Part shown: piece after piece, positions 15,737-30,905 of the stretch | Numbering within the stretch: position 1 is the stretch's first letter | How the letters are laid out: the number at the start of each line of letters is the position of its first letter | From: Sinorhizobium fredii NGR234 | Lineage (GTDB): Bacteria > Pseudomonadota > Alphaproteobacteria > Rhizobiales > Rhizobiaceae | Length of the DNA: 64,000 nt | Assembly: GCF_000018545.1 (NCBI RefSeq) | Contig: NC_012586.1 | Location: 372,001 to 436,000, forward strand | Direction: 5' to 3' | The notes under the pieces: generated by a model | Database searches by the model: none | Told to the model about the DNA's origin: nothing | The model's input: the letters and a program-made list of their open reading frames with translations, nothing else | Translations under genes and position numbers: made by a program

Positions 15737-16308
15737 CTATGAACGAGCAGCGTCAGTGCCTGCGCCGTCACTGAGAATGTCCATATAAGCTCGATAAACG
15801 AACACCCGGCCACGGCGCCGCCCGGTGGCTTCCTCGACAATGCCGAGTCTCTGTAGTTGGTCCAGTGCAGCGTTCACGGTCGGCACTGTGAGAGCGCTTC
15901 GCTTCGCCGCGGACGCTGCGGTCAGATAGGGGCTCGTGCGCATGATGTCATGGATCTGAAGGACTGATCCTGTACGTTCGGATTCTCTCACGATCCGTCC
16001 CCTGTCGTCGTCAAGTAGTCGTGCAATACGGCTGGCTGTCTCAAAAGTTTGATCCGCTGTTTCGGCCACACCGTCCAGGAAAAACTCTAGCCAGGCTTCC
16101 CACGTTCCATATTCTCGGACTTCCTGCAAAAGCCGGTAGTAATCGGGCCGTCGCGATTTGAAATAAAGGCTGAGATTGAGCAGAAGTTGTCGAAGCACTC
16201 CGGTCGCGCAAAGGTAGAGTGTGATCAGAAGCCGACCGAGGCGACCATTTCCATCTAGGAAGGGATGAATGGTTTCAAACTGGACGTGGATGAGGCCGGC
16301 CTTTGATC
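15737..16308 (-). pseudogene. Fic-domain protein, C-terminal fragment
   Basis: The minus-strand frame, open from about 16308, contains KAGLIHVQFETIHPFLDGNG followed by RLGR, the Fic catalytic motif HPFxxGNGRxxR. It continues with LLLNLSLYFKSRRPDYYRLL and a C-terminal winged-helix-like part (LTVPTVNAALDQLQRLGIVEE). Fic proteins transfer AMP or related groups to target proteins; this kind normally has about 370 residues. The N-terminal half is missing: at about 16305 the sequence changes directly into a LysE exporter remnant. No start codon with a ribosome site precedes the Fic motif. The surviving 153 residues after the GTG at 16198 lack the motif, so I call it a pseudogene. Confidence 0.7.
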
Positions 16309-16640
16309 GGCCAATACGGTTTCTGCGCCATAGCCAATGAGTGTATGCCCTCCGACCACGATCACCTCGATCGGGGCAATGATCACCAGCAGTTCCGCGG
16401 TATGGTAAACGGTGAGCGGCCGGGTCCCCAGAACACCCGGCAGCAGTGCGAGGTAAGAAATCGGCATCCTTGGGTTGGAGATGTTGAGAAGCAAGCCCGT
16501 GAGGTAAAGTCTGATCAGGCTGCCCGCATCACGTGCGGCCTGATGTCCGCCGAAGCGCTTGGTCCAAGGCCTTAAGACCAGCAAAGCGGAAAGCCATGCC
16601 CGCGAAGACGAGCTGTCGCCAGTAAAGCAAGATATTGATA
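16303..16640 (-). pseudogene. LysE/RhtB-family exporter remnant
   Basis: One minus-strand frame carries IRLYLTGLLLNISNPRMPIS and YLALLPGVLG, the hallmark of LysE/RhtB amino-acid exporters. The N-terminal part (LLYWRQLVFAGMAFRFAGLK) lies in another frame, so at least one frameshift has occurred near 16570. The sequence stops resembling LysE after ETVLADQRP and runs into the Fic fragment. No intact start or C-terminus exists. It appears to be half of a deletion scar. Confidence 0.55.
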
Positions 16641-16674
16641 ATGGCACGCATATCCATCTCCTCACGCTAAAGCG

Positions 16675-17262
16675 TCATGCAATAAAGGCCAAGCCAATAC
16701 CGGCGCCGATGATCCCCGTGCCGATGATGCGATGCGCCGGCATGGGGCCGGTGCCGCGCCGGGCAAGTGCATGCCAAACGGTCATGCCGGTGATGTGGAG
16801 GATCACCGTGCCGCCGATGAAACCGAGGATATGGCCGAGCGGTGCTGCGGCCGGACCCTCCGTGCCATGGGCGAAGCCATGGAAAAAGCCGAAGGTGGCG
16901 GCGCCGGTGATGGCGAGCGTAGCTGGTATGTTCGCGTTCGCGATCAACGCCGCGCCCAAGAGGATGACGGAGGTGATTACCGCCGCCTCGACGAGGGGGA
17001 CCGTTACGCCGGTCAGGACATAGGCCGCGCCCGCAACCATGGCCGAGACGAAGGCGAGCGGCAGCCGGAAGAGCGCCGAGCCGCCGAGCCGTCCTGCGAT
17101 CAGTCCGACCGCGATCATGGCGAGCAGGTGGTCGACGCCGGAAAAGGGATGCAGGAGTCCGCTTGCAACACCGTGGACATGATCATTGCCGGAATGGGCC
17201 AGCGCCTGGCCGGGAAGGCTCGCGGTGATGATTGCGAGTGCCGTCAGAGTCTTGAAATTCAT
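16675..17262 (-). CDS. hupE: HupE/UreJ-family nickel (or cobalt) permease
   Basis: The product has 195 residues. There is a signal-like N-terminus (MNFKTLTALAIITASLPGQALA), then the family's metal motif HPFSGVDHLLAM, five or six membrane segments, and a second His motif FFHGFAHGTEG. HupE/UreJ proteins bring Ni2+ across the envelope to feed hydrogenase or urease. No hydrogenase or urease gene is near. The gene ends an operon whose central enzyme is the nickel-type guanidine hydrolase at 17832-19037, so nickel supply to that enzyme is the likely role. It starts 25 bp after the stop of the His-rich gene. Confidence 0.85.
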   Translation of the reverse strand: MNFKTLTALAIITASLPGQALAHSGNDHVHGVASGLLHPFSGVDHLLAMIAVGLIAGRLGGSALFRLPLAFVSAMVAGAAYVLTGVTVPLVEAAVITSVILLGAALIANANIPATLAITGAATFGFFHGFAHGTEGPAAAPLGHILGFIGGTVILHITGMTVWHALARRGTGPMPAHRIIGTGIIGAGIGLAFIA

Positions 17263-17287
17263 GGTGTTGCCTTTTTGAAGGAGGAAT

Positions 17288-17827
17288 TCATTCGGTCGGT
17301 TCTATGTCGAAATGCGAGGCGTCGGTCCGGTCCTCGAGCTTGCGCGCCTCGGCGAAGGAAAGCCGGACGACCGCCTCGCCGTCGTGATAGAGGAACGAGA
17401 GGTCGTGGCGGCGCGACGTCATGCGTGCCGGCAGCACGTCGTAACGCACGCCGTTGCCGCCGAGGAGCGGCACGACCGCGCCGATATCCGTACGATCTGC
17501 GATCTCGACGCGCAGCAGATGCAGGGCTTTCCCGGAAGCGTCGATGCCTACAAAGGGAATGCCCGCAAGTCTGAGAAAACTCGTCGCATCACTCGCGCGG
17601 GCAAAGTTCTCGACGAAACTCGCCTCGACGAGATCGAGATCACGCTCGTGCGGCGGCGACAGGTCCTTTCTTGTGGGGCGATGCGGCACCTGCCATTGTA
17701 CGGTGCCGCGCTGCCGGTTATGGCCGGGACCCGCATGCTGGTGGCCGTGATGGTCGTGATCGTGATCATGATCACGGTGATGCGAATGCGCGCCGTGATG
17801 GTGATGATGTCCGCCGTGCATGGCCAC
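17288..17827 (-). CDS. Very His-rich protein, candidate nickel chaperone for guanidine hydrolase
   Basis: The product has 179 residues. The first 36 residues contain 17 histidines in runs such as GGHHHHHGAHSHH and RDHDHDHDHHGHQH, a typical Ni2+/Zn2+-storing tail like those of UreE, HypB or SlyD. The remaining 140 residues (FLRLAGIPFVGIDASGKALH, LPARMTSRRHDLSFLYHDGE) form a compact domain I do not recognise. It has no P-loop, so it is not HypB/UreG, and no Cys pairs, so it is not HypA-like. It has no signal peptide and is therefore cytoplasmic. The gene sits between a guanidine hydrolase gene (4 bp gap) and a nickel permease gene. Cyanobacterial guanidine hydrolases use HypA/HypB-like maturation factors; none is seen here, so this protein may take that place. 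Function is inferred. Confidence 0.6.
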   Translation of the reverse strand: MAMHGGHHHHHGAHSHHRDHDHDHDHHGHQHAGPGHNRQRGTVQWQVPHRPTRKDLSPPHERDLDLVEASFVENFARASDATSFLRLAGIPFVGIDASGKALHLLRVEIADRTDIGAVVPLLGGNGVRYDVLPARMTSRRHDLSFLYHDGEAVVRLSFAEARKLEDRTDASHFDIEPTE

Positions 17828-17831
17828 CTCC

Positions 17832-19037
17832 TCAGAAGCTCACCGGCTTGTCGATCAGGTGCTTGTGGGAACCGAGCTTGCCATGTGCCAGCATCGATCC
17901 CAGCGCCTCCACCACCACCCGAACGCCAAAGAGTGCCGTGATGTCGGATGTGTCGTAAGGCGGGCTGACCTCGACGACCTCGAGGCCGCAGAGCCCTTCT
18001 GCCGCGACCAGCCCGAGGATCTTCAGGGCCTCGCGCGGCAGGAAGCCGCCCGGTTCCGGCCAGCCTGTGCCGGGCACGAAGCCGCAATCGATACTGTCGA
18101 CGTCGAAGGAGATATAGACGGCGTCGGCGTCCTTCCAGGCAAGCTCGAGGGCGATCTCCGCAGTCTTCTCCGGACCGAGCTTTTCGATGTCGTCGATCGT
18201 CAGCACGTTGGTTCCGCGCTCGCGCGCCACCTTCACGCCGTCGCGCGGCACCTGCCAGCCGCCGATACCGAGCTGGACGAGATTTTTCGGCGAGACGTTC
18301 GGCAGATTGGTTGCCCAGTACCAGGGCGTCGTGTGCATGCGCTCGTCGAGATCCTTTTGCTGGATGTCGATATGCCGGTCGAAATGGATGATCCCGATGC
18401 GTTTCGATGTGCATTCGGCAATGCCGCGCACGCAGGGAAAGCCGATCGAGTGGTCGCCGCCGAGCATGATCGGCAGCGCGCCGGACGAAAAGACATGGGA
18501 GACGCCGCGGGTGATCTGGTCGAAGCTCTTTTCCAGATTGGCCGGGATGGTGAAGACGTCGCCGGCATCGCAGAGCGTCATCTGTTCGCGCAGGTCGACA
18601 CCCATTTCGTAGTTATAAGGCGTGTAGAGCGCCGAGATGCGACGGATGCCCTGCGGTCCGAAGCGGGTGCCTGGACGATAGGTCGTGCCGCTGTCGAAGG
18701 GAATGCCGAGCACGGCCGCATCATACTTGCCGACATCGCGAACGTTTTCGACGTAGGGCGCCTTCAGGAATGTGTTGATACCGGCGAAATGCGGCAGCTC
18801 GCCCCTCGCGAAGGTCGGGATCGACTTGTCCGTCAGGCTCTCCGAGCCCGGCAGACCCATTTCGAGCGCCCATTGCTTTTCCCGCCCCCAGCCCTTGCCG
18901 GAAAGCTTCGCCTCCGCCTCGAGCGCCTTCCAGCCCTGGCTGTCGAGCATGTTGAAATCCGGATGGTGGCGGCGCTCGCGAACGGGCGCGTGCATCGCGC
19001 CGGCGCGCCGGGCTTGGCGGCTTGGGGGTTCACGCAT
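17832..19037 (-). CDS. gdmH: Ureohydrolase-family guanidine hydrolase (GdmH type, nickel)
   Basis: The product has 401 residues. It belongs to the arginase/agmatinase fold, with metal ligands His196 (GGDHSIGF), Asp220/His222/Asp224 (HFDRHIDIQ) and Asp312/Asp314 (ISFDVDSID). Agmatinases read FDAHxD; the DRHID variant, the long N-terminus (about 100 residues before the core), the stretch DERMHTTPWYWATN and LGIGGWQVPR match, from memory, cyanobacterial Sll1077-type enzymes that hydrolyse guanidine to urea and ammonia with Ni2+. The guanidine-I riboswitch at the head of the operon, the importer upstream and the nickel-handling genes downstream agree. The start at 19037 overlaps the ATPase gene end by 8 bp. 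Agmatinase or guanidinobutyrase is the alternative, but less likely. Confidence 0.82.
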   Translation of the reverse strand: MREPPSRQARRAGAMHAPVRERRHHPDFNMLDSQGWKALEAEAKLSGKGWGREKQWALEMGLPGSESLTDKSIPTFARGELPHFAGINTFLKAPYVENVRDVGKYDAAVLGIPFDSGTTYRPGTRFGPQGIRRISALYTPYNYEMGVDLREQMTLCDAGDVFTIPANLEKSFDQITRGVSHVFSSGALPIMLGGDHSIGFPCVRGIAECTSKRIGIIHFDRHIDIQQKDLDERMHTTPWYWATNLPNVSPKNLVQLGIGGWQVPRDGVKVARERGTNVLTIDDIEKLGPEKTAEIALELAWKDADAVYISFDVDSIDCGFVPGTGWPEPGGFLPREALKILGLVAAEGLCGLEVVEVSPPYDTSDITALFGVRVVVEALGSMLAHGKLGSHKHLIDKPVSF

Positions 19038-19836
19038 GGGGCATGCTCCTTTTCGTTTCCTGGGACATGGTGTTGGGCTCGATCGGCCGCGAAAAGCCGA
19101 GGATCGGTACAGGGCCGTCGCGGCTCAAATCGAGGTCGTAGATGATGCGGGCGCCGTAGCGCTCAGGCGCTTGCGGATCGATTCGCGGCTTGTCGAAGGC
19201 GAGCAGCCGCGTCCCGAGACCGAAGGCTTCCTTGAGATCGTGGGTGACCATGATCACGGTCATGCCGCGCTCGCGCCATAGCGGCTTGATCAGCGCGTGC
19301 ATCTGCGCCCTGGTACCCGGGTCGAGCGCGCCGAAGGGCTCGTCGAGCAGCAGCACCTTCGGCTCCTTGGCGAGCGCCTGGGCGATCGCCAGCCGCTGCT
19401 GCTGGCCGCCCGAAAGCGCGCTCGGATACTTCCAAGCGTGCTCGCTGAGGCCGACCGCTTGAAGAAGCGCTTCCGCCTTCTCGCTGGCCGCCTTTCGCTT
19501 CGCTCCAAACAGCTTGGCCAGAAACGGGCTTTCGGCGAATTCGTAGGCGATCAGGACATTCTGCAAAACGTTCAGGTGGGGAAAAACCGAATACCGCTGG
19601 AACACCACGCCGCGGTCCGAACCCGGCTCGCCCGGCAGCCCCGCGCCGTCGAGCGTGATGATGCCGCGCGTCGGCCGCTCCTGCCCAAGGATCATCCGAA
19701 GAAAGGTGGATTTGCCGCAACCCGAGGGGCCGACGACGGAGACGAAGGCGCCGGGGGCGATATCGAGCGAGACGCCTTCGAGCACGATCTGGTCGCCATA
19801 TTCCATCCAGACGTTATGGACGCGGATCTCGCTCAT
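19030..19836 (-). CDS. ABC importer ATPase, NitT/TauT type (guanidine uptake)
   Basis: The product has 268 residues, with ATG 19836 overlapping the permease stop by 4 bp. Walker A is VVGPSGCGKSTFLRM, the Q-loop VVFQRYSVFPHL, the signature LSGGQQQRLAIAQALA and Walker B VLLLDEPFGALD, with switch His in VTHDLKEAF. It belongs to the SsuB/TauB/NrtD branch. A C-terminal tail of about 40 residues (GARIIYDLDLSRDGPVPILG) is longer than usual. It energises the permease at 19833 and is predicted to import guanidine because of the riboswitch and the downstream hydrolase. Confidence 0.88.
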   Translation of the reverse strand: MSEIRVHNVWMEYGDQIVLEGVSLDIAPGAFVSVVGPSGCGKSTFLRMILGQERPTRGIITLDGAGLPGEPGSDRGVVFQRYSVFPHLNVLQNVLIAYEFAESPFLAKLFGAKRKAASEKAEALLQAVGLSEHAWKYPSALSGGQQQRLAIAQALAKEPKVLLLDEPFGALDPGTRAQMHALIKPLWRERGMTVIMVTHDLKEAFGLGTRLLAFDKPRIDPQAPERYGARIIYDLDLSRDGPVPILGFSRPIEPNTMSQETKRSMPHA

Positions 19837-20657
19837 CGGCGCGCCTCCTGGGCATAGGCCCAGGGGAAGCCGCGTCGCGCAATCCGTGCCAGCAGCCAGT
19901 CGAGGACGTAGGCGATGAGGGTGATCCAGGCCACATAGGGCAGGATAACGTCCATGGCGAGATAGCGCCGGACGAGGAAGATTCGATAGCCGAGGCCGCT
20001 TTCTGCGGCGATCGCTTCGGCCGAGATCAAGAAGAGGAAGGCTGGGCCCAGCGATAGCCTCATGGCTTCGATAAGCCGTGGCATCGCCTGCGGCAGTGCC
20101 ACGCGCAGCATCACTTGCCACGTCGAAGCGCCGAGCGTCTGCGCCTTGACGATCTGCTCGCTCGGGATGGCGGCAACGGTCATGGCGAGGTCGCGAACTA
20201 GGAACGGTGCAATGCCGATTACGATCAGCACGACTTTGGAGAGTTCACCAAGACCGAGGATGATGAAGAGCACTGGCAGGATCGCCATCGGCGGGACCAT
20301 CGAAATGACGGCGACGAGCGGCGACAGGCCGGCGCTTGCCACCGGAAGCAGCCCAAGCGTCAGCCCGAGCACCAGGCCGATGGCAGCAGCCGCACCGAGG
20401 CCGATGAACAGTCGCTGGAGGCTCGCCGTAGTATCCGACCAGAGGGTCAAGTCTCCCGACCGGCGGTCGGGCTCGGTCGCCAGCCGGTCCATGCTCGTGG
20501 CCATTTCCGCGATCGGTGGCAGCAGCTTGTCGCCCGGATTTGCTGCCCGCCGTTCAGCCGAGACGACGACATAGAGGCAGGCGATCAGCAGGAAGGGCAG
20601 GAGGGCGAGCAGGATCCGCGTTCCCGATCCTGGGACGATATTGATGGCACGTCGCAT
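19833..20657 (-). CDS. ABC importer permease, NitT/TauT type (guanidine uptake)
   Basis: The product has 274 residues from ATG 20657; a TTG at 20684 would add nine residues but has no ribosome site. It has six predicted membrane segments, starting with ILLALLPFLLIACLYVVV, and the EAA-type loop SEQIVKAQTLGASTWQVMLRVALPQAMPRL that contacts the ATPase. The family is SsuC/TauC. It lies 80 bp downstream of the binding-protein gene and overlaps the ATPase gene by 4 bp. The same family supplies a guanidine importer in cyanobacteria, which supports the assignment. Confidence 0.88.
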   Translation of the reverse strand: MRRAINIVPGSGTRILLALLPFLLIACLYVVVSAERRAANPGDKLLPPIAEMATSMDRLATEPDRRSGDLTLWSDTTASLQRLFIGLGAAAAIGLVLGLTLGLLPVASAGLSPLVAVISMVPPMAILPVLFIILGLGELSKVVLIVIGIAPFLVRDLAMTVAAIPSEQIVKAQTLGASTWQVMLRVALPQAMPRLIEAMRLSLGPAFLFLISAEAIAAESGLGYRIFLVRRYLAMDVILPYVAWITLIAYVLDWLLARIARRGFPWAYAQEARR

Positions 20658-20737
20658 GAGCCGGTTCTCATCTTGGAGAGGCAAGTGGAGGCTAAGATCG
20701 TCAGGGTGCGCCAGCTCGGCCGCCTGAGCGGATGGAC

Positions 20738-21820
20738 CTAGAGCGAGCCGTCGGCGGCGAGCTTCATGTAGCTCGCATCGAAGCGCAGCTTCACATTGTC
20801 TGCAGAACCCAGCACCTGGCCGCCCGGGAAGGCGATGCCCACGACGTCCTTGTCCGCGGCGCCGTCGCCGAGAAGGCCATGATCGAAGGAGAAGGTCCGC
20901 ACCAGTTCCATGGTCCTGACGAGGTCCTCGCTCTCGGTGAAGGAGACCGCCTCCTGAGGTGTAGCGAACAGCTTGGTCGCCGCAAGCTGGGCCTCGAAGC
21001 CGGCAAGGTCCGTGCCGGACATAGTGCCCATCGCGGTGCGTGCAGTCTTGCCCTTCTCGCCCGGGTCCGTCAGGACAGACATTATCTCGTACCAGATGCC
21101 GGCGAGTGCCTTGCCGAAGTTGGGATTGTCCTTGAGTACCTCGGTGTTGACCATCATCGTATCGATGATCTCGCCTGGAATTTGCGTGGAATCGAACAGC
21201 GCGGCGGAACCGGGCTCGGCCTTGACCTCGGCGAGCAACGGGTTCCAGGTGACCACCGTCGAGGTCTCCGGCGACTTGAAGGCGGCGACCATGTCGGCAT
21301 CGGAGGTGTTGACGATCGTCACGTCCCTTTCTGAAAGCCCCGCGGTTTCAAGGGCGCGCGCCAGCAGATAGTGCGAGACCGAAAGTTCGACGAGATTGAT
21401 GCTCTCACCCTTGAGATGGGCGGGCGTCTTCGCGGTCTTGGAGACGATGCCGTCATTGCCGTTCGAGAAATCGCCGACGATCAGGATCGTCGTGTCGACG
21501 CCGCCTGCGGCCGGAATGGTCAGGCCATCCATGTTCGTCGCCGTCACGCCGTCGAAGCTGCCGGCCGTGTACTGGTTGATCGACTCGATGTAGTCGTTGA
21601 CCTGCTTGACGTTGATGGTGATGCCGTATTTGTCGGCCCATTTCTTCACAATGCCGGCATCCGCCGCATAGGGCCACGGCATCCAGCCGACGTAGATCGT
21701 CCAGGCGATATTGAATTCCTTCTTCGGCTCCGCCCGCGTCCCGCTCGCCAGAAGCGTGAGCGACAGGCCGAGAGCGACCGAGAGGGCACGAAAACCGAAT
21801 CTGCCATTTCCAAAACGCAT
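20738..21820 (-). CDS. Periplasmic substrate-binding protein, NitT/TauT type (probable guanidine binder)
   Basis: The product has 360 residues. Start ATG 21820 begins a Sec signal peptide (FRALSVALGLSLTLLASGTRA, cut near TRA/EPK). The mature protein opens with FNIAWTIYVGWMPWPYAADA and has INVKQVNDYIESINQYTAGS and VTATNMDGLTIPAA, in line with ABC-type nitrate/taurine-like binding proteins that often bind small cationic or amide compounds. It is the first gene after the guanidine-I riboswitch, about 92 bp from its 3' end, so its expression should rise with guanidine. Guanidine as ligand is inferred from context. Confidence 0.82.
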   Translation of the reverse strand: MRFGNGRFGFRALSVALGLSLTLLASGTRAEPKKEFNIAWTIYVGWMPWPYAADAGIVKKWADKYGITINVKQVNDYIESINQYTAGSFDGVTATNMDGLTIPAAGGVDTTILIVGDFSNGNDGIVSKTAKTPAHLKGESINLVELSVSHYLLARALETAGLSERDVTIVNTSDADMVAAFKSPETSTVVTWNPLLAEVKAEPGSAALFDSTQIPGEIIDTMMVNTEVLKDNPNFGKALAGIWYEIMSVLTDPGEKGKTARTAMGTMSGTDLAGFEAQLAATKLFATPQEAVSFTESEDLVRTMELVRTFSFDHGLLGDGAADKDVVGIAFPGGQVLGSADNVKLRFDASYMKLAADGSL

Positions 21821-21911
21821 CGTTCTATTCCCCTGTTCAAGTTGGGGCTCACGCTGCGCTCTTTTCTCGGAAACCACAGGCGGGATTCCCAAAGCAACGG
21901 CACCGCTGCAT

Positions 21912-22012
21912 GAGCCTCCCGGGCTTTTATCCCGCCGTGGACCCGGTGGATGTCTCCCCACCGGAGGTTTCTCTCGGTCCAGACATGCCCTGACGGCATC
22001 GGAACCCTAGAA
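21912..22012 (-). promoter_or_regulatory. Guanidine-I (ykkC) riboswitch
   Basis: Read on the minus strand, the leader contains the class's conserved blocks in the right order. CTAGGGTTCCG is at 22009-21999, then a variable hairpin, then CTGGACCGAGAGAAAC, a second variable hairpin, CACGG, and finally GGGATAAAAGCCCGGGAGG ending near 21914. These are the ligand-binding and P1/P3 signatures of the guanidine-I aptamer. It sits between a promoter at 22021-22048 and the binding-protein gene at 21820. Riboswitches of this class turn on guanidine export or degradation genes when guanidine is bound. The expression platform should lie in the 92 bases before 21820, but I cannot fold it here. Confidence 0.93.
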
Positions 22013-22020
22013 ACATCTGC

Positions 22021-22048
22021 AGTATAATTCCATGACTCCGAAAGTAAA
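22021..22048 (-). promoter_or_regulatory. Candidate sigma-70 promoter for the guanidine operon
   Basis: On the minus strand a -35-like TTTACT (22048-22043) is separated by 16 bp from a -10 TATACT (22026-22021). Transcription would start near 22014, directly at the first conserved base of the riboswitch, which supports the prediction. Confidence 0.5.
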
Positions 22049-22279
22049 GTGGAAGTTCTGCCGAATTCCGCCCATAATTTGTGCATGAATGCTTATAAAA
22101 TGATCAAATAGATCAATAATTATTGCGAGCATTTGAGGAGCCCTTGTAGCGCCGTTCTTCCGCGCGCTGAGACGTGATTGGCGATCGGCGGGTTTGGCCG
22201 GCCTGCCGAGAGTTATATTGAGTAGAAGCGACATTTTAAGGTCGCTCTCCCTCACCAGTCGGCTTCTCCATCAGCGCTC

Positions 22280-24085
22280 TCAGGCGGCCAAGCTGGCGAT
22301 GTAGGCACGCCACCCGCCATAGCGGCTGATGTCTGCAGCTCCGGCGAGCCCGGCCGGCTCGACCAAAAAGCCCTTGCAGGCCGTTCCGTCGGCAAGCTGG
22401 ACGGTACCGATCGCAAGTGGTGATGGAACGGCTGCGACGAAGAGTCCGAACGCCTCTGCCCCCAACTTCCAGACCTCAACCTCGATCGAGGCACCTTCAC
22501 TCTCCTGACAACGCACGAGGCCGGGTTTCGCGGGCTCGGTGCTCGAAAGAGCATAAAGCCTGTAACATTTGGCCGTCAGCGCCCGCCGGGAAAATCTGGC
22601 GCCCAGGTCTCGCAACTGGGCGTTCAAGGGCATGCCGGAAAGATGCGCGCCGACGACAACGAGTTCTATCATCTGGCCCTCATCGGTGGCGGCCGGGAGA
22701 TAGTTCGCCGGCTGCGGCCATCCCGTGGCGCCGAGCGGCAGGGCGCTTAGCCGATGCAGTTCGGCAGCGAGCGATGCGGTCAGGTGATCCTTGCCGGCAG
22801 GCGCGAGCAAGGTGACGCTCGCAGGCCGACCGTCGGATCTGTGACCCGTCGGCACGGCCATGCCGCACATGTCCAGCAGGTTGACGAAATTGGTATAGAT
22901 GCCGAGCCGCGCGTTTTCGCGGATCGGTTCCGCTTCGACTTCCATACGTGTGAAGTGCGTCGGCGCGGTCGGAACGCAGATCATGTCGACGGACGCGATG
23001 AGCGGCGCGACCTTTCGCTTCAGCGCCTGCAACGCATAGAAACCCTCGAAGGCATCCGCCGCCGACAGTGCCTTGGCGCCGCCATAGATCTCTCGCGTCA
23101 CCGGATGGAAGCTCGTCTCGTTCGCATCGAAGAAGTCCTTGACCGCTGCATATCGTTCGGAGACCCAGGCGCCTTCGTAGAGAAGCGCGGCCGTGGCATA
23201 GAAATCGGCAAAGGGCAACTCGACAATCTGATGCCCCAGTGAGCGCAGCATCTGAAGCGCGTCGGCGTAGGCGCTCTCCATGAGCACGTCCCCGAAGAAG
23301 CGCCGATCCGCCGTTGCCGGTACGCCGACTTTGAGGACCGGTGGCAAGGAGAGACCGCCCCTCGGCGCAATGTCCCGGGAATAGGAGTCGGTCGCATCGG
23401 GTCGCGCGGCGACTTGGAAAATTTGATAGGCGTCCGCGACGGCCAAGGCGAAGATAGAAACGCAGTCGAGAGTACGGCAGGCCGGCACGACGCCCGTGGT
23501 CGACAGGGCACCGATACTCGGCTTGAGGCCGACGATGTTGTTAAGTCCGGCCGGGATGCGGCCCGAGCCAGCCGTGTCGGTACCGAGCGCGAAGCTGACG
23601 ATGCCGTGGGCAGTCGCCACCGCCGATCCGGAGCTCGATCCGCCGGGCACGAGCGCTGGATCGATGGCGTTGCGCGGCGCCGGATAAGGGGTCCGCACGC
23701 CAACGAGACCGGTCGCGAACTGGTCGAGATTGGTCTTGCCGACGACGAGGGCGCCGGCCTCGCGCAACAGTCGTACAACCGTGGCGTCCCTTTCGGCCAA
23801 GTAGGCATAATCCGGGCAGGCGGCCGTCGTCGGCATGCCGGCCACGTCGATATTGTCCTTGACGGCGAAGGGAATGCCCCACAACGGTTTGGCGACAGGA
23901 TCGAACGCGCCGAGAGCGGCGGCCTCATCGAGGAGTTCGCTGCGATCGGCGAGATGGAGAAAGATACCCAGATCGTCGACGGCCGCGATGCGCTCGAAAA
24001 CCGTCTTGATCGTCTCAGCCACGCTCCAACCCGACCGATAGGCGGCATGAAGAGAAGCAATGTCGAAAGCCTGTCCGTCTTTCAT
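22280..24085 (-). CDS. atzF: Allophanate hydrolase
   Basis: The product has 601 residues from ATG 24085, which has AAGGAA upstream; an in-frame TTG at 24103 is less likely. The amidase domain (about 1-430) has the Ser-cisSer-Lys triad: Lys76 in IPFAVKDNID, Ser150 in PGGSSSGS and Ser174 in TDTAGSGRIPAG. The spacings (74 and 24) match those I recall for AtzF. The C-terminal domain (about 470-600; VVVGAHLSGMPLNAQLRDLGA) is the second domain of allophanate hydrolases, which plain amidases lack. It converts allophanate to ammonia and CO2. As the last gene of the biuret operon it removes the product of biuret hydrolase. It begins 5 bp after the cupin gene. Confidence 0.9.
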   Translation of the reverse strand: MKDGQAFDIASLHAAYRSGWSVAETIKTVFERIAAVDDLGIFLHLADRSELLDEAAALGAFDPVAKPLWGIPFAVKDNIDVAGMPTTAACPDYAYLAERDATVVRLLREAGALVVGKTNLDQFATGLVGVRTPYPAPRNAIDPALVPGGSSSGSAVATAHGIVSFALGTDTAGSGRIPAGLNNIVGLKPSIGALSTTGVVPACRTLDCVSIFALAVADAYQIFQVAARPDATDSYSRDIAPRGGLSLPPVLKVGVPATADRRFFGDVLMESAYADALQMLRSLGHQIVELPFADFYATAALLYEGAWVSERYAAVKDFFDANETSFHPVTREIYGGAKALSAADAFEGFYALQALKRKVAPLIASVDMICVPTAPTHFTRMEVEAEPIRENARLGIYTNFVNLLDMCGMAVPTGHRSDGRPASVTLLAPAGKDHLTASLAAELHRLSALPLGATGWPQPANYLPAATDEGQMIELVVVGAHLSGMPLNAQLRDLGARFSRRALTAKCYRLYALSSTEPAKPGLVRCQESEGASIEVEVWKLGAEAFGLFVAAVPSPLAIGTVQLADGTACKGFLVEPAGLAGAADISRYGGWRAYIASLAA

Positions 24086-24089
24086 CGTT

Positions 24090-24437
24090 TCAATTTCCTT
24101 CAAGCATCGTCACGGGCCGATACCACTGGATCAGAACGACACAGCCGGTATCGCTCCAGACGGAATGTTCCGTGCCCGCGGCATTGACGATGTAGGTGCC
24201 GACCCCATAGTCGCCGCTTTCGTCGGATTGGGTGCCGGTGAGCACCAGGATCGTCTCCAAGCCGTCATGACGGTGACGCGGCACGGAAGCGCCGGCCTCG
24301 TAGCGGAGCAATGCAACACCGGGCTGACCGCCATCGAAGTGCCTTATCCAATGGATCATCACTCCATCGCGGAACGGCTCGAATTCAAGGTCACGCCAAC
24401 TTCCCTGTGTCAGGCTCTCGCGTGTCGTTTCAGGCAT
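24090..24437 (-). CDS. Small cupin protein
   Basis: The product has 115 residues from ATG 24437, overlapping the previous gene by 8 bp. It is a single cupin barrel of the ChrR-like kind, with metal-ligand type residues in [20 protein letters not shown] and a second motif near [12 protein letters not shown]. It has no signal peptide and no DNA-binding part. Similar small cupins occur in amide-degradation operons, sometimes with an unknown role. Here it lies between two hydrolases of the biuret pathway. It might act on an intermediate or stabilise an enzyme; the sequence does not decide. Confidence 0.75.
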
Positions 24438-25098
24438 GGGCGATCCCCCTGAGCACATCGGCGAGATGCGCCGTCCATCCGACGATAGCGCCCTGCGCAC
24501 GGATCATCGCCAGGGTCGCGGACTTGAACTCGGGGAAGTAGCTTTCCGTCGCCTCCTCGACGAGCAGGCACTCGTAGCCGCGGTCGTTCGCTTCCCGCAT
24601 GGTCGTCTGCACGCAGACCTCGGTCGTCACGCCGGCGAAGACGAGCTGTCCGATGTCGCGCTCCTTCAGGATGTAGTCGAGCGGTGTCGCATAGAACGCA
24701 CCCTTGCCAGGCTTTTCGATGACCGTCTCGCCAACGGCCGGCGCGAGCTCCGGCAGGATCGCGGTGCCCGGCTCGCCCGCAATCAGGATGCGGCCCATGG
24801 GACCCTCGTCGCCGATCCTAAAGTGGGGGCGGCCGCGTTCGCGCTTGGCCCGCGGCAGATCGGAAAGGTCCGGACGGTGACATTCCATGGTATGGATCAC
24901 CGGCAGGCCGGCGGCGCGAAAGCCCTCGATCAGCCGCTTGACGTCGGGCACGATCTTCGCCACGCGCGCTACGTCATTGCCGAGGCTTTCGCCGAAGCCG
25001 CCTTCCTCCGTGAAGTCGCGCTGCATGTCGATGACGATGAGCGCGACGGCGTCGCGGTCGAGCCGGAACGGAAAAGGTTCTGCCTTGATCTCCGCCAT
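24430..25098 (-). CDS. Isochorismatase-like cysteine hydrolase, second paralog in the biuret operon (triuret or biuret hydrolase candidate)
   Basis: The product has 222 residues. The triad of this family is complete: Asp24 (IVIDMQRDF), Lys129 (IEKPGKGAF) and Cys162 ([22 protein letters not shown]). It resembles the biuret hydrolase at 26639-27355 (shared [42 protein letters not shown] and [13 protein letters not shown]) but is shorter at the N-terminus and differs near the active site (FYATPLDY instead of FCATDLEL). A triuret hydrolase related to biuret hydrolase is known from Herbaspirillum, so this could be the enzyme for the next larger oligomer. Ureidoacrylate-type amidase is another option. 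It starts at the ATPase stop (TGATG junction). Confidence 0.75.
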
Positions 25099-26642
25099 CA
25101 GTGGTGCCCCGCCATATGGGCTCCGATGACGGCCACGTCCGCGTCGCGAGTCGGCGTCTCGTAGACGAGCTTGCCGTCCGACATGACGATGATCCGGTCC
25201 GACATTTCCATCAACTCATCGAGATCCTCGGACATCAGGAGCACCGCAGCGCCGGCATTGCGCGCCTTCATGATGCGGGCGCGGATTTCCGCGACCGCTG
25301 AAAAGTCCAGGCCGAAACAGGGATTCGACACGATCAGGAGATCGACGTCGCCCGACAGTTCGCGCGCCAGCACGGCTCGCTGCACATTCCCGCCCGAAAG
25401 GGCTGCAATCGGCGAGGCGGGGGAGGCGGTCTTCACCTTGAAGTCGGTAATCAGCGCCGTCGCGCGCTTCTTCATGCCGCGTGCGTCGAGCCAGATCGCA
25501 TCGCTGCCGTCCTTGGCAAGGTCGAAGGTGCGGAAGGCGAGGTTCTCCGTCACCGTCATCTTTTGGGCGCAGGCATTGTTGAGCGGCTCTTCCGGGATGA
25601 AGCGGACGTTGTTTGCCCTGGTCTCGGGCCGCGTTGCGCCGTAGGGCTTTCCCTTGACGATGACTGCCCCCTCGGCCGTGCGCTGGCCGGCGAGAACCTC
25701 GGAGAGCTCCTTCTGCCCATTGCCGGATATACCCGCGATGCCGACGATCTCCCCGGAGCGAACGACCAACTCGTCGATCTCGATAGGCTTCAGCCCGGTG
25801 CGGTCCGGCGCCTTGACCTTCTTGACCGCGAGCACCGGAGCGGCGTCCGGGGAAACGGGCAGGCGCGTGTCCAGTTCGGCGAGCTTGACGTCACCGATCA
25901 TCATCCCCGCCATGTCTGCGGTGGAGAGCTCGGATACCCTGCCGGTGCCTGAAAGTCTGCCGCGCCGGAGCACGGAGACCGCGCCGGCGAACTTCGTCAC
26001 CTCGTGGAACTTGTGGGAAATCATCAGGACCGTCAGCTCGCCGCGTTCCGTCATGCCGCGCACGAGGCCGAGCATGTCGTCGGCCTCGGCCGGAGTGAGA
26101 ACGGAAGTCGGCTCATCGAGCACCAGGAACCGGCGCCCGAGATAGAGCTGCTTGATGATCTCGAGCTTCTGCTTCTCGCCGGCGGCGAGTTCGCTCACCG
26201 GACGATCGAGCGGTATGTCAAAGGGCATCGTCTGCATGAAGGCGCAAAGCCGCTTCTTCTCCTTCGACCAGTTGATGATCGCGGGCACGCGCGCGCGGCT
26301 GATGACCAGGTTTTCAGCGCCAGTCAACGAAGGCACGAGCGTGAAGTGCTGATAGACCATCCCGAGGCCGTGAGCGGCCGCATCGCGTGGCGAAGCGATC
26401 GCCACTTCGCGGCCGTCGACCTGCAATTGCCCGGAAGTCGGGTGGTAGAAGCCCATGATGCATTTCACGAGCGTGGACTTGCCAGCCCCGTTTTCGCCGA
26501 GAAGAGCATGGAAGGTGCCGGCCGGCACCTTGATCGACACTTGGTCGAGCGCGGTGAAGGAGCCGAAGCGCATCGTCATCTCGACGGTCTCGATGCCGAC
26601 GGCGGGAATGCTCTTTGGAGCAGGGATTTCGCCGATGATCAT
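25098..26642 (-). CDS. Double-cassette ABC ATPase, simple-sugar/nucleoside (BMP) type, biuret operon
   Basis: The product has 514 residues from ATG 26642, which overlaps the biuret hydrolase stop by 4 bp. It has two ATP-binding cassettes. The first has [26 protein letters not shown] and [29 protein letters not shown]; its signature Ser is replaced by Ala. The second has [17 protein letters not shown] and [19 protein letters not shown]. This matches the YufO/NupA-like ATPases that pair with BMP-family binding proteins. With the two permeases and the binding protein of this operon it completes an importer. The substrate is probably biuret or a related ureide, judged from the catabolic genes in the same operon. 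Confidence 0.88.
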
Positions 26643-27355
26643 GGCAACTGACCCACGAGCGTCGCAGAATTGGAGACGGAGCCGAAGACGCCGCCCTGCA
26701 TCTTCACCATCTTGATCGCGGCAAGATGGTTGCCGTAGTCGGTCGCGCCGCAGCAATCCTCGAGCAGGAGGCATTCGAAGCCGCGGTCATTGGCCTCTCT
26801 CATGGTCGTGTGCACGCAGACATCGGTGGTAATGCCGGTCAGGACGATGTTGTCGATGCGCTTCTGGTTGAGGATCAGTTCGAGGTCGGTGGCGCAGAAC
26901 GAGCCCTTGCCCGGCTTGTCGATGATTGTTTCCCCTTGGATCGGCTTCAACGCGTCGATGATTTCCCAGCCGGGCTCGCCGCGCACCAGGATCCGCCCGC
27001 AGGGACCGGCATCGCCAATCCCTGCCTTGATCCGCTGCGAGCGCCAGCGCTTGTTTGCGGGAAGGTCTGCCAGATCCGGCCGGTGGCCCTCGCGCGTGTG
27101 AATGATGTGGTAACCCTTGGCGCGCATTGCCGAGAGCACCTTCCTGATCGGTTCGATTGGCGCGCGAACCAGCGAGAGATCATAGCCCATGTGGTCGACA
27201 TATCCGCCCGGACCGCAGAAATCGGTCTGCATGTCGATGATGATCAGCGCCGTGTTCTCGGGTCTGAGGTCGCCGTTATAGGGCCACGGATAGGGATCGG
27301 CATCGATATGGCTGAGCTTATGGCTCGTGATCGGCAGGGAGCCGAGACTGTTCAT
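26639..27355 (-). CDS. biuH: Biuret hydrolase
   Basis: The product has 238 residues. It is a cysteine hydrolase of the isochorismatase superfamily that cuts biuret to allophanate and ammonia. The catalytic triad is Asp41 ([15 protein letters not shown]), Lys147 ([16 protein letters not shown]) and Cys180 ([15 protein letters not shown]). The spacing equals the Asp36/Lys142/Cys175 I recall for the Rhizobium leguminosarum enzyme, and [11 protein letters not shown] and [17 protein letters not shown] also match that protein as I remember it. It starts 12 bp after the permease stop and overlaps the ATPase gene by 4 bp. Together with allophanate hydrolase at 22280 it gives a full route from biuret to ammonia and CO2. 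Confidence 0.9.
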
Positions 27356-27367
27356 GACGGATCGCTC

Positions 27368-28297
27368 CTATTTGGTGATCGACAAGGCGCCAGGGGCGCC
27401 GGCGAGCGAGCGGGTGGGAGAGGATGTGGCGATCATGATGACGAGGGTCAGCACGTAGGGGGCGGCATAGAATAGGTAGTAGCCCTTCGTGACGCCGACC
27501 GATTGCAGGGCGGGCCCAAGCGCACCGGCGCCGCCGAAGAGAAGCGCGGCTAGGAAGCAGCCGATCGGGTTCCATCGGGCGAAAATGACGAGCGCGACGG
27601 CCATGAGGCCTTGGCCCGACGAGATGCCCTCGTTCCAGGAGCCCGGATAGTAGAGCGAGAGATAGGCGCCGCCGATCGCTGCCAGCGCTCCCCCGGCGGC
27701 TGTTGCAAGCAGCCGCACCGTATCGGGGTTCAAGCCCATCGCCCGGGCGGCGTCCGAACTGTCGCCGACAACGCGCAGGATGAGGCCGACACGGGTATTG
27801 CGGAAGGCCCACCAGAGAAAGAGGGCGAGGGCTGCGCCGATGAGGAAGAGAACGTTGATGTTGAGGACGGCCTGGATCGGCGGCAGATCCGACCAGGCGC
27901 CGAAGGCGATGGCCGGCAGCTTCGGAGCGGCGGGCTGAATGAAGGGCTTGCCGAGAAAGAAGGCGAGGCCGAGGCCGAACTGCATCATGGCAATGCCGAT
28001 TGCGATGTCGTTCACCTTCCGAAACTTGCAGATGAAGCCGTGGGTGAGGCCGAAACAGGCGCCGACTGCCATTGCCGCCAGAACGCCGAGCCATGGCGAG
28101 AGCGTCATGACCGCGACCGCATAGGCCGTCATTGCGCCGAAGACGAGCGTGCCTTCGAGACCCAGGTTGATACGGCCGGTGCGCTCGGTGATCGCCTCGC
28201 CGAGACTGACGAAGATGAAGGGCGTGGAGACGCGGATCGCGCCGGCGAAGATCGCCAGCGGAACGCCCCAGACGCCAATGCCGGTGGCTTCCATCAT
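27368..28297 (-). CDS. ABC permease of the YufQ/NupC (BMP) type, biuret operon
   Basis: The product has 309 residues. The start at 28297 (two adjacent ATGs, 28297 and 28294) overlaps the previous permease stop by 4 bp; the open frame runs far further upstream but only in the shadow of that gene. It has eight or more membrane segments and the family stretch VSLGEAITERTGRINLGLEG and TLVFGAMTAY. Together with the permease at 28294-29424 it forms the heterodimeric channel of a BMP-type ABC importer. Biuret uptake is inferred from the operon. Confidence 0.87.
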   Translation of the reverse strand: MMEATGIGVWGVPLAIFAGAIRVSTPFIFVSLGEAITERTGRINLGLEGTLVFGAMTAYAVAVMTLSPWLGVLAAMAVGACFGLTHGFICKFRKVNDIAIGIAMMQFGLGLAFFLGKPFIQPAAPKLPAIAFGAWSDLPPIQAVLNINVLFLIGAALALFLWWAFRNTRVGLILRVVGDSSDAARAMGLNPDTVRLLATAAGGALAAIGGAYLSLYYPGSWNEGISSGQGLMAVALVIFARWNPIGCFLAALLFGGAGALGPALQSVGVTKGYYLFYAAPYVLTLVIMIATSSPTRSLAGAPGALSITK

Positions 28298-29424
28298 GCG
28301 CTCCTTTTCCAGAGGTCCGGATTGAATATCTTGAAGCGGCCGTAGAACGTCTCGCAGAACAGGATGACGACGAAAAGCGTGCCTTGAAGCACCAGCACGG
28401 TTGCATCCGGCAGACCCATGCGGCGCTGGATCAAACCGCCGGAGGCATCGATGCCGCCGAGCAGCACCGCGACTGGAATGATCGCCAGCGGATTGTGGCG
28501 CGCAAGGAAGGCGACGAGGATGCCGGTGTAGCCATACCCTGCGGCAAGCGATGCATTGGCGCTGCCCTGCACCGCAGCGACTTCGATCATGCCAGCAAGA
28601 CCGCCGAAGGCGCCGGCGAGCGCGGTGAAACCAACGATAAGCCTGCCTACCGGCAGCCCCTGGATCTGTGCGGCACGGACGTTGCCGCCGGCAATGCGCG
28701 CGGCGAAGCCGAAGCTCGTCGCCTCGATCAGCACCCAGGAGAGAATGCAGGCCATGACGCCAACGACGAGACCCCAGTGGAGATCCGTTCCTGGGATGCT
28801 GCCGAGCATGTAGTCCGGTGGCAACGGGGCAGTGGATGGCTTGTTGAGGCTTGCCGGATCGCGCAGCGGCCCCTCTATGAGGTGGTTCATGACGGCAATT
28901 GCGATATAGGCGAGCAGAAGTGAGGCGATTGTCTCGTTGACGCCGCGATAGTGCCTGAGAAAGCCCGCGAACCCGAACCAGACGGCTCCGACGAGCATGC
29001 CTGCAAGCGCCATGATGAGCCAGACGAGCGGAGCGGGTGCGTCGCCGACGAGGGGCAGGGCGATCGCGGCTCCGGCGACGCCGCCGAGTACGACCGCGCC
29101 TTCGGCGCCGATCACGACGAGGCCGAGCCTGGCGGGAAGGGCGACGCAGAGCGCGGTCAGGAGCAGCGGCGCCGCGCGGCTTAACGAATTCTGCACCGAG
29201 AACCATGTGCCGAAGCCGCCGGCGTAGATAAGCTCGAAGAGCTGGATCGGCGATCTGCCGATCAGTGCGATGAAGAGCGAAAAGAGCGCGAGCCCGACGA
29301 AGATGGCAAAGAGCGTAATCGCCAGCGGTTCCGCGCGGCGCGCCAGCCATTCGAGGAAGGGCCGGAGACTACCGACCCGGCCGTCGAGCGTGGCTAAAGT
29401 GTGGGAGTTGGCTTCGAGGGTCAT
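28294..29424 (-). CDS. ABC permease of the YufP/NupB (BMP) type, biuret operon
   Basis: The product has 376 residues from ATG 29424, 14 bp after the binding-protein stop. It has about ten membrane segments; after an N-terminal segment (AITLFAIFVGLALFSLFIAL) come PIQLFELIYAGGFGTWFSVQ, VVIGAEGAVVLGGVAGAAIA and RHYRGVNETIASLLLAYIAI, typical of the larger permease in purine/nucleoside-type BMP importers. It is the partner of the permease at 27368-28297. Confidence 0.87.
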   Translation of the reverse strand: MTLEANSHTLATLDGRVGSLRPFLEWLARRAEPLAITLFAIFVGLALFSLFIALIGRSPIQLFELIYAGGFGTWFSVQNSLSRAAPLLLTALCVALPARLGLVVIGAEGAVVLGGVAGAAIALPLVGDAPAPLVWLIMALAGMLVGAVWFGFAGFLRHYRGVNETIASLLLAYIAIAVMNHLIEGPLRDPASLNKPSTAPLPPDYMLGSIPGTDLHWGLVVGVMACILSWVLIEATSFGFAARIAGGNVRAAQIQGLPVGRLIVGFTALAGAFGGLAGMIEVAAVQGSANASLAAGYGYTGILVAFLARHNPLAIIPVAVLLGGIDASGGLIQRRMGLPDATVLVLQGTLFVVILFCETFYGRFKIFNPDLWKRSA

Positions 29425-29438
29425 GATGCCGACGCCCC

Positions 29439-30581
29439 TTAAGCAGTCGAGCCGACGACGCCCTCGACCAGGTAGTCCATGCTTTCGAGCTCGATCGCGT
29501 TCTCGGCGAAGGATTGCCCCACCGCCACGACGACATTGCCCTTGTTGTCCCTGATCGATCCCTTGAAGACCGAGAAGCCGCCGGCCATTATTGCGGCGAG
29601 CGTCGCTTCGAATTTCTTGCGCGCCTCCTCGGTAACCGCCGTGCCGAGCGGGCTCATCTTGACAAAGCCTTCCTTCAGGCCGCCGCGAACGAAATTTCCA
29701 AGCTTTTGCCCAGCCTGGGCCTTCGTCACGAAATCCGTGTAGACATTGCCCCATGCCCATTCGGCGCCGGTGAGGTACTTCTCGGGAGCGAGCGGACTTT
29801 GATTGGCGTGATAGCCGCAGATGAACGCGCCGCGGCCGGCGCCCGTCTCGACGACCACCTTGGGGCTATCCACATGGCAGGTCACGACGTCAGCGCCCTG
29901 GTCGATGAGCGCGTTGGTGGCCTCCGCCTCCTTGACCGCGAGCGACCATTCTCCGGTGAAGATCACTTGGCAGGTGATCGCGGGGTCGACCGAGCGGGCG
30001 CCGAGCAGGAAGGAATTGATGTTCTGCAGCACCTGCGGAATGGGCTTGGCGGCGACGAAGCCGATCTTCTTGCTCCTGGTCGCGTAGCCGGCGGCAATGC
30101 CGTTGAGATATTGCCCCTGGCCGATATAGCCGAAATAGGAACCGGTGTTGCCCGGATGCTTGCCCTCCTGCCAAAGGCCGCCGCAATGGCGGAACTGGAT
30201 GCCGGGATATTTCTTCGCCAGCTCCAGCATGTGGGGATCAAAATAGCCGAAGGAGGTGGGGAAGAGGAGCGTCGCCCCATCGAGGTTGATCATCGATTCC
30301 ATCGTCTTCTGAACGTCAACGGTCTCGGGGACGTTCTCCTCCTCGACGACGGTGACGCCCGGCAAGGCCTTGATTGCCGCCGCTCCCTCCGCATGCGCCT
30401 GGTTGTAGCCGTAATCGTCCTTGGGGCCGACATAGATGAAGCCGACGGTCAATGCGCTCTGGGCGGCGGCAGGCGAAAGGAGAAGACCCGGCGCGAGGCT
30501 CGCCACGGCGGCACCCGCGGCAGATGATTGCAGAAATGCGCGGCGGGATATGGCGTGGGAGGCATGAAGGAGTTTGGTCAT
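29439..30581 (-). CDS. BMP-family substrate-binding protein with Tat signal (biuret operon)
   Basis: The product has 380 residues from ATG 30581. The N-terminus has a twin-arginine signal (SRRAFLQSSAAGAAVASLAP) ending at AAAQ/SAL, so it is exported folded. The mature part has VGFIYVGPKDDYGYNQAHAE, NLDGATLLFPTSFGYFDP and QGADVVTCHVDSPKVVVETG, the pattern of PnrA/BMP nucleoside- and purine-binding proteins. It is the first gene of the biuret operon, divergent from a GntR regulator gene. As the operon degrades biuret, this purine-type protein may have moved to a ureide-like ligand. Ligand identity is inference. Confidence 0.85.
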   Translation of the reverse strand: MTKLLHASHAISRRAFLQSSAAGAAVASLAPGLLLSPAAAQSALTVGFIYVGPKDDYGYNQAHAEGAAAIKALPGVTVVEEENVPETVDVQKTMESMINLDGATLLFPTSFGYFDPHMLELAKKYPGIQFRHCGGLWQEGKHPGNTGSYFGYIGQGQYLNGIAAGYATRSKKIGFVAAKPIPQVLQNINSFLLGARSVDPAITCQVIFTGEWSLAVKEAEATNALIDQGADVVTCHVDSPKVVVETGAGRGAFICGYHANQSPLAPEKYLTGAEWAWGNVYTDFVTKAQAGQKLGNFVRGGLKEGFVKMSPLGTAVTEEARKKFEATLAAIMAGGFSVFKGSIRDNKGNVVVAVGQSFAENAIELESMDYLVEGVVGSTA

Positions 30582-30711
30582 TGGGATGCTCCTTGCGAGT
30601 GGCGCTGGCCGGTTCGAATTCGATGCAATGAAAAGTGCATGCAATGTGTGTGCCAAGAAGTAACCATATGATATCGTTGAGTCGCCCTCATTGGGTGGAT
30701 CGCCGTTGAGC

Positions 30712-30727
30712 AAACTGTATGCAGTTT
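30712..30727. promoter_or_regulatory. Perfect palindrome, candidate GntR operator in the biuret intergenic region
   Basis: The 325-bp divergent region 30582-30905 contains AAACTGTATGCAGTTT, a perfect palindrome with 6-bp arms around TATG. Related TGTATGCA-type words occur at 30891-30898, just before the GntR start, and as TGCATGCA at about 30637-30644, close to the operon start. Placement on both flanks fits autoregulation plus control of the biuret operon by the GntR protein at 30906. No other feature was recognised in this region. Confidence 0.5.
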
Positions 30728-30905
30728 TCAAGCGATATGCTGATTTTCTATGCGACGCTAATGGAATGGGCGAGATGGTCTTGTGTGGGCGCCAATCCCT
30801 ACGGAAGCTAAGCTAGGCGAGCTTGGAAAACCGGCTGAAGTTCTAGAGAGTTAAGCTTCCAGTTTGACTTGCGGACCACGTGCGTGCATCTGTATGCAAA
30901 TTCCA

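Follow-up and report, generated by a model that had tools for sequence, protein, structure and literature searches.

How a guanidine hydrolase with a predicted nickel-dependent site might be supplied with its metal is the question raised by an operon of Sinorhizobium fredii NGR234. The operon lies on the minus strand (22048-16675) of a 64,000-nucleotide (nt) stretch of contig NC_012586.1 (positions 372,001 to 436,000), hereafter the window. It comprises, in this order, a guanidine-I riboswitch aptamer, the genes of an ATP-binding cassette (ABC) importer, a gene (gdmH) for a GdmH-type hydrolase, an open reading frame (ORF) for a His-rich protein and a HupE gene. An initial annotation had named these elements and read them as an operon for guanidine uptake and hydrolysis with its own nickel supply; the presence of every one of them was confirmed. 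Operons joining this riboswitch to GdmH are already known. What is new is the His-rich protein, hereafter the partner, a constant and unannotated companion that tracks the enzyme where helpers of the HypA/HypB type are not co-encoded. The initial annotation had listed it without giving it weight. We consider it rather probable that the locus is a guanidine-induced nitrogen-scavenging operon in which the partner would act as a dedicated nickel-loading factor for GdmH.

The closest relatives of the hydrolase in the PDB were the Synechocystis structures 7esr/7oi1 (540 bits, E 2.3e-161) and the Nitrospira guanidinase 9fek (519 bits, E 7.7e-155); the next, a guanidinobutyrase, reached only 174 bits. 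All six metal ligands (H196, D220, H222, D224, D312 and D314) were present in the window enzyme and in 80/80 related loci, as were T119, H235, W326, E356 and R221 of the DRH motif. The residue list was drawn from the part of PMC11410670 available to us and mapped by alignment. The last five residues are identical to those of both characterised guanidinases (7oi1 and 9fek rows), and T119 and W326 are the two published guanidine-specificity residues. Since the closest structures, the metal ligands and the specificity residues agree, and since all NCBIfam matches stayed under their cut-offs, we assign the protein to the GdmH type, with guanidine hydrolysis as its predicted activity. Activity mainly on another guanidino compound, such as agmatine or guanidinobutyrate, would suit the best of those NCBIfam matches, which were to agmatinase-type models, and the name agmatinase borne by most relatives that carried a source name (among the best 120 of 5309). 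Yet none of these matches attained its cut-off, and T119 and W326, kept at every related locus, never occurred together in the genome's four remaining ORFs of the arginase family, where position 221 is A and position 326 is T. We regard this alternative as highly improbable. Guanidine sensing, import and hydrolysis, as put forward by the initial annotation, are well supported at the level of sequence by the aptamer, the family of the substrate-binding protein (SBP) and T119/R221/H235/W326/E356.

In a quick tree the four other arginases of the genome fell outside the GdmH group (SH-aLRT 97), and the 81 partner-bearing enzymes grouped in a single clade (SH-aLRT 99) that excluded the cyanobacterial and Nitrospira enzymes; just two characterised guanidinase rows were included, and the cyanobacterial and Nitrospira enzymes were long branches whose join was flagged as unsure. 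One locus labelled as an Anaerolineae metagenome-assembled genome (L075) placed inside the alphaproteobacterial GdmH clade, and is either misbinned or transferred. In the N-terminal region of GdmH (residues 25-36), H25, P26, G35 and W36 were kept in 80/80 loci; four actinobacterial GdmH-like rows, described below, have P26 and G35 in common with them but neither H25 nor W36. This region is a possible docking site for the partner. A GdmH scan of viral contigs found none among 112 stretches.

Linkage of gdmH to the partner was assessed in 80 loci plus two genome samples. The loci were the best of at least 581 from a scan with a GdmH alignment; they are 72-98% identical to the window enzyme and biased to close relatives. 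The partner lay behind gdmH in 80/80, the two genes overlapping by up to 11 nt or standing up to 298 nt apart, with a distance not exceeding 23 nt in 68/80; partner start codons were picked by script. GdmH was found in 11 of the 385 genomes sampled from the class (counted at E 1e-120) and in 7 of the 398 sampled from the phylum, and the partner adjoined it in 11/11 and 7/7, respectively. GdmH was counted at E 1e-120 and 1e-90 in the two samples, scoring was confined to each genome's best candidates, and the window genome and G156 were common to both. The largest gap in the phylum sample was about 345 nt (G787). GdmH was also found in ten plasmid records, six of which were inspected; both alphaproteobacterial records among these had the partner, and the four actinobacterial ones lacked it. 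A candidate natural fusion of GdmH to the partner (P0070) was rejected: GdmH is represented in it by residues 137-247 alone, as if by a deletion or at an assembly junction. In P0156, GdmH continues into a stretch that resembles the partner but is not hit by the model; we interpret this as a frame shift.

At nine of the 80 loci the roughly 8 kb upstream yielded no importer gene, an absence that hinges on the chosen score limits, and part of the importer was lacking at three more (L051 and L075, at a contig end, and L013, with an SBP-like match only). All nine retained the partner, and the riboswitch directly preceded gdmH in eight. Since importer-less loci keep the partner, the partner goes with the enzyme and not with the importer; since eight of them keep the riboswitch too, the smallest unit is riboswitch, gdmH and partner. 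A search for other conserved downstream genes gave lineage-specific sets only, HupE among them. HupE is probably a nickel importer by its family, and it fits the nickel theme because hupE also follows the metformin hydrolase genes in the accessible text of PMC11399263. It was near gdmH in just 21/80 loci, however (directly downstream in 17), and 6 changes were counted for it on the GdmH tree. We regard HupE as optional and outside the constant unit, and reject it as the core of the nickel supply. The own nickel supply claimed by the initial annotation was corrected accordingly: its constant element is the His-rich protein, to which a nickel role may be ascribed, and not HupE.

The partner joins a core of about 100 residues to a His-rich tail that varies among members. 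In an alignment of 66 sequences, one from the window and the others from 65 loci out of the 80 (numbering starts at the GTG at 17827), F71, D80, L85, R86, P91, G116, P120, Y129, P133 and R140 were invariant or nearly so. The best 30-residue segment held a median of 14 His, versus at most 8 in the other ORFs of the operon. At L065 the His tail is C-terminal, and some other members have His at both ends; Cys was absent from 66/80 partners. The possibility of a spurious ORF was rejected on the ratio of nonsynonymous to synonymous substitution (dN/dS 0.08-0.28 versus three Sinorhizobium relatives) and on the number of homologues, 189 in one search and 2129 in another (the best 120 of each listed). 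Neither the 66 members nor their profile matched Pfam, NCBIfam or PDB entries at E 0.001. Weaker matches to NCBIfam nickel/cobalt efflux (E 0.0025) and DmeF (E 0.0096) families, by 11 members each, and to Pfam ZrgA (E 0.017, 8 members), probably arise from the His tail. No homology of the 66 members to HypA or HypB was found, their sole HypB match being weak (E 0.14); nor did they match UreE_N or UreE_C in Pfam, with one weak NCBIfam match to UreE (E 0.19).

Alternatively, the partner might belong to the GdmH complex as a subunit with a structural or regulatory role, comparable to the second subunit of metformin hydrolase, with the His tail secondary. The gene overlaps and short gaps fit this idea, as does the divergence of the partner, which is correlated with that of GdmH (r 0.86 over 3160 pairs, a value that shared ancestry alone could give), and metformin hydrolase requires a second, metal-free subunit according to the portion of PMC11399263 at hand. 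However, the partner has no Pfam match and hence no detectable relation to arginases, the consulted part of PMC11410670 gives the enzymes of Synechocystis and Nitrospira as homohexamers, and a His tail that can be C-terminal would be left unexplained. We judge the subunit explanation quite improbable, and return to the partner as a nickel-loading factor.

Known nickel helpers were sought in the same loci. HypA was found in 0/80 with a model built from 12 HypA sequences, the control being recovery of the same 12, and a genome search found it absent from the window's genome. A HypB/UreG-type GTPase was found in 1/80 loci (L024), on the other strand and with a UreG-like score; the only probe was the UreG-like protein of the window's genome, and with it 11 ORFs are detected in the HypA loci. 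In the genome itself the best and sole match to the HypB model reached 89.6 bits (cut-off 121.2) and lay near UreE; since it is below cut-off and near UreE, it is probably UreG.

We compared this arrangement with published systems through excerpts of the cited papers. Like the Synechocystis operon of GdmH/Sll1077 and GhaA/GhaB, the window has a guanidine-I riboswitch and a TauABC/SsuA-type importer (PMC8390497, PMC10119275, PMC12186494). Cyanobacterial guanidinase clusters include hypA and hypB (PMC10119275, PMC8390497), and Ni2+ is loaded by two accessory proteins in Synechocystis (PMC12186494). In contrast, no HypA/HypB-type genes were detected at the window locus, which has the His-rich orphan behind gdmH and, in addition, HupE. 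The guanidinase operon of Nitrospira inopinata shares with the window the guanidine-I riboswitch, a GdmH-type enzyme (9fek) and a region without nickel chaperones, but has an APC permease, unlike the ABC importer of the window, and the excerpted report mentions no His-rich partner (PMC11410670). Its authors found no chaperones and called the nickel-loading route of this comammox enzyme unclear. The metformin hydrolase operon (hypA, hypB, mefH alpha/beta, hupE) likewise encodes a nickel ureohydrolase with HupE directly downstream, whereas its enzyme is heteromeric and has another substrate, HypA/HypB are present, and no His-rich orphan is mentioned in the text drawn on (PMC11399263). A literature search returned no paper joining guanidine, riboswitch, nickel and 'histidine-rich', which does not imply absence from print.

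In the account that we favour, binding of guanidine to the aptamer would switch on expression of the operon, the ABC importer would take guanidine up, and GdmH would hydrolyse the guanidine at a two-metal site that depends on nickel, yielding urea and ammonia, the urea being split by a urease encoded elsewhere. Nickel would enter the cell through HupE and be gathered by the His tail of the partner, a putative dedicated accessory factor whose core would dock on GdmH and pass the metal over, standing in for the HypA/HypB-type chaperones (GhaA/GhaB) of cyanobacterial GdmH. More tentatively, and with slightly less than even confidence, we suggest that the partner defines a new nickel metallochaperone class with no relation to HypA, HypB or UreE, which would serve a single ureohydrolase client, be induced by guanidine together with that client, and have become established at the root of the alphaproteobacterial GdmH clade, replacing HypA/HypB.

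The single urease alpha match of the whole genome lay on contig C3, outside the window's contig, with beta, gamma, UreD and UreE nearby. Urease alpha was present in 49/49 searched genomes with the locus (some of them drafts, L085 being left out), its base rate in the class not having been established. The initial annotation had noted that the window holds no urease, which this search bore out, and its suggestion that urea is used by enzymes elsewhere fits the same data. The same genes lend themselves to another view, that of a standard operon for guanidine use, with GdmH receiving nickel from urease accessory proteins or spontaneously and the His-rich protein serving only as a nickel store or buffer. 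UreE, UreD and the urease subunits in this genome and the constant presence of urease in the others agree with it, and Nitrospira GdmH works without a known chaperone, according to the part of PMC11410670 used here. A general store, however, would be expected away from gdmH too, whereas the family was beside GdmH in 11/13 and 7/7 genomes of the two samples, and the conserved core exceeds the needs of a store. We therefore hold this view to be unlikely, though it deserves some weight.

Several observations nonetheless weigh against the partner as a dedicated nickel-loading factor. Linkage was imperfect: the partner match of G509 is crossed by one TGA, and two genomes of the class sample had partner sequence without a GdmH match. 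One of these (G414) has a shortened SBP followed, in another frame, by the partner core carrying its His tail at the C-terminus, and the other (G174) has an 81-residue ORF matching the second half of the partner profile; we take both pieces for remnants or for faults of assembly. Within 6 kb of the GdmH-like genes of four actinobacterial records, no partner and no HypA was found (in one of these four enzymes the Trp is absent). His tails were weak at L075 (4 His in the best 30-residue segment), L035 and L048 (6 each) and L034 (7). HypA was present somewhere in 21/49 GdmH genomes, and the UreE encoded in the window's genome could load GdmH. Profile comparison of the partner core with 12 HypA sequences gave a probability of 0.2%, and with the genome's UreE of 0.1%; since the core matched neither, the proposed nickel-loading mechanism is without precedent here. 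In the excerpts at hand, no helper was found near the Nitrospira GdmH-like enzyme (PMC11410670), and extracts containing metformin hydrolase but not its chaperones showed activity of the enzyme when nickel was added (PMC11271267). Together with the actinobacterial records, these cases indicate that loading without a dedicated factor is possible. Finally, the account presumes both nickel rather than another metal and a direct partner-GdmH contact.

The partner is a concrete candidate for the nickel-loading role in a large soil and marine clade that includes Sinorhizobium and Mesorhizobium. If the proposed role is correct, the partner would serve as a marker for guanidinases among entries named agmatinase and as a co-expression aid for producing active enzyme.

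Features of the operon and of the genes upstream of it are collected in Table 1.

Table 1. Features of the guanidine operon and of the adjoining biuret/allophanate-type gene set (window coordinates).
Feature	Coordinates	Strand	Evidence or remark
Guanidine-I riboswitch aptamer (RF00442)	21914..22021	-	cmscan 82.9 bits, gathering 63, E 2.8e-13, model positions 1-107 of 107
SBP, TIGR03427 ('putative urea ABC transporter substrate-binding protein')	20738..21820	-	543 bits, cut-off 333.9; ATG at 21820
ABC permease, TauC/SsuC-like, start uncertain	19833..20684	-	PF00528 76.9 bits
ABC ATPase	19030..19836	-	PF00005 116 bits
GdmH-type guanidine hydrolase (predicted), 401 residues	17832..19037	-	PF00491 257 bits
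His-rich orphan partner	17288..17821 (alternative GTG start 17827)	-	no family; variable His tail and conserved core
HupE/UreJ-family permease	16675..17262	-	PF04955 153 bits, cut-off 23
Bmp-type SBP	29439-30731	-	biuret-type gene set
Permease	28294-29760	-	biuret-type gene set
Biuret amidohydrolase	26639-27355	-	NF050097 420.6 bits, cut-off 370
ATPase	25098-26774	-	biuret-type gene set
Second BiuH-like hydrolase	24430-25098	-	244.8 bits, under cut-off
Allophanate hydrolase	22280-24103	-	biuret-type gene set

The aptamer was the only RF00442 match across the 6.89-Mb genome, and it points to guanidine-dependent control of the genes behind it. A riboswitch model built by us from 18 of these aptamers, and not taken from Rfam, matched 76/80 related loci, 17 of the 76 having helped to build it; L042, L050, L051 and L075 gave no match. 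Folding of the leader was not better than that of shuffled sequences (z -1.30, with 21/200 shuffles as good). On the minus strand, the aptamer segment GGCGGGAT (21936-21929) is perfectly complementary to the downstream segment ATCCCGCC (21886-21879), both within 21879-21936, and the same pair is visible in L008-L010; their pairing is a possible switch helix.

A promoter-like site, TTTACT-16-TATACT (22048-22021), directly precedes the aptamer. The initial annotation had placed a promoter there, but such matches are at chance level, with 2 sites in 16000-25400 versus 1.8 expected. A single transcript across the operon is plausible from the gene spacing, because its junctions are either overlaps of 4-8 nt or gaps of 10-53 nt. 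The importer is of the NitT/TauT type, and its SBP probably binds guanidine; in the family searches the SBP input carried two extra residues compared with the ATG start. The best NCBIfam match of the permease was TauC, at 122 bits against a TauC cut-off of 342.

Directly upstream of the guanidine operon, on the same strand, lies a biuret/allophanate-type operon (22280-30731) that the initial annotation had passed over. It also contains a cupin gene, and the second BiuH-like hydrolase is, we presume, perhaps a triuret hydrolase. BiuH, cupin and allophanate hydrolase matches were found in L008 and L009 as well. Elsewhere in the same genome, the genes for urease beta and alpha are separated by one of the LprI family (L140, 10795-11214, minus strand). 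At one Ancylobacter and one Xanthobacteraceae locus (L014, 5596-7740, and L017, 3265-6006), the riboswitch, gdmH and partner are near a GTP cyclohydrolase-like gene, accompanied by UPRTase in L014 and by DUF1688 in L017, a gene company that we take to resemble the URC set for uracil breakdown.

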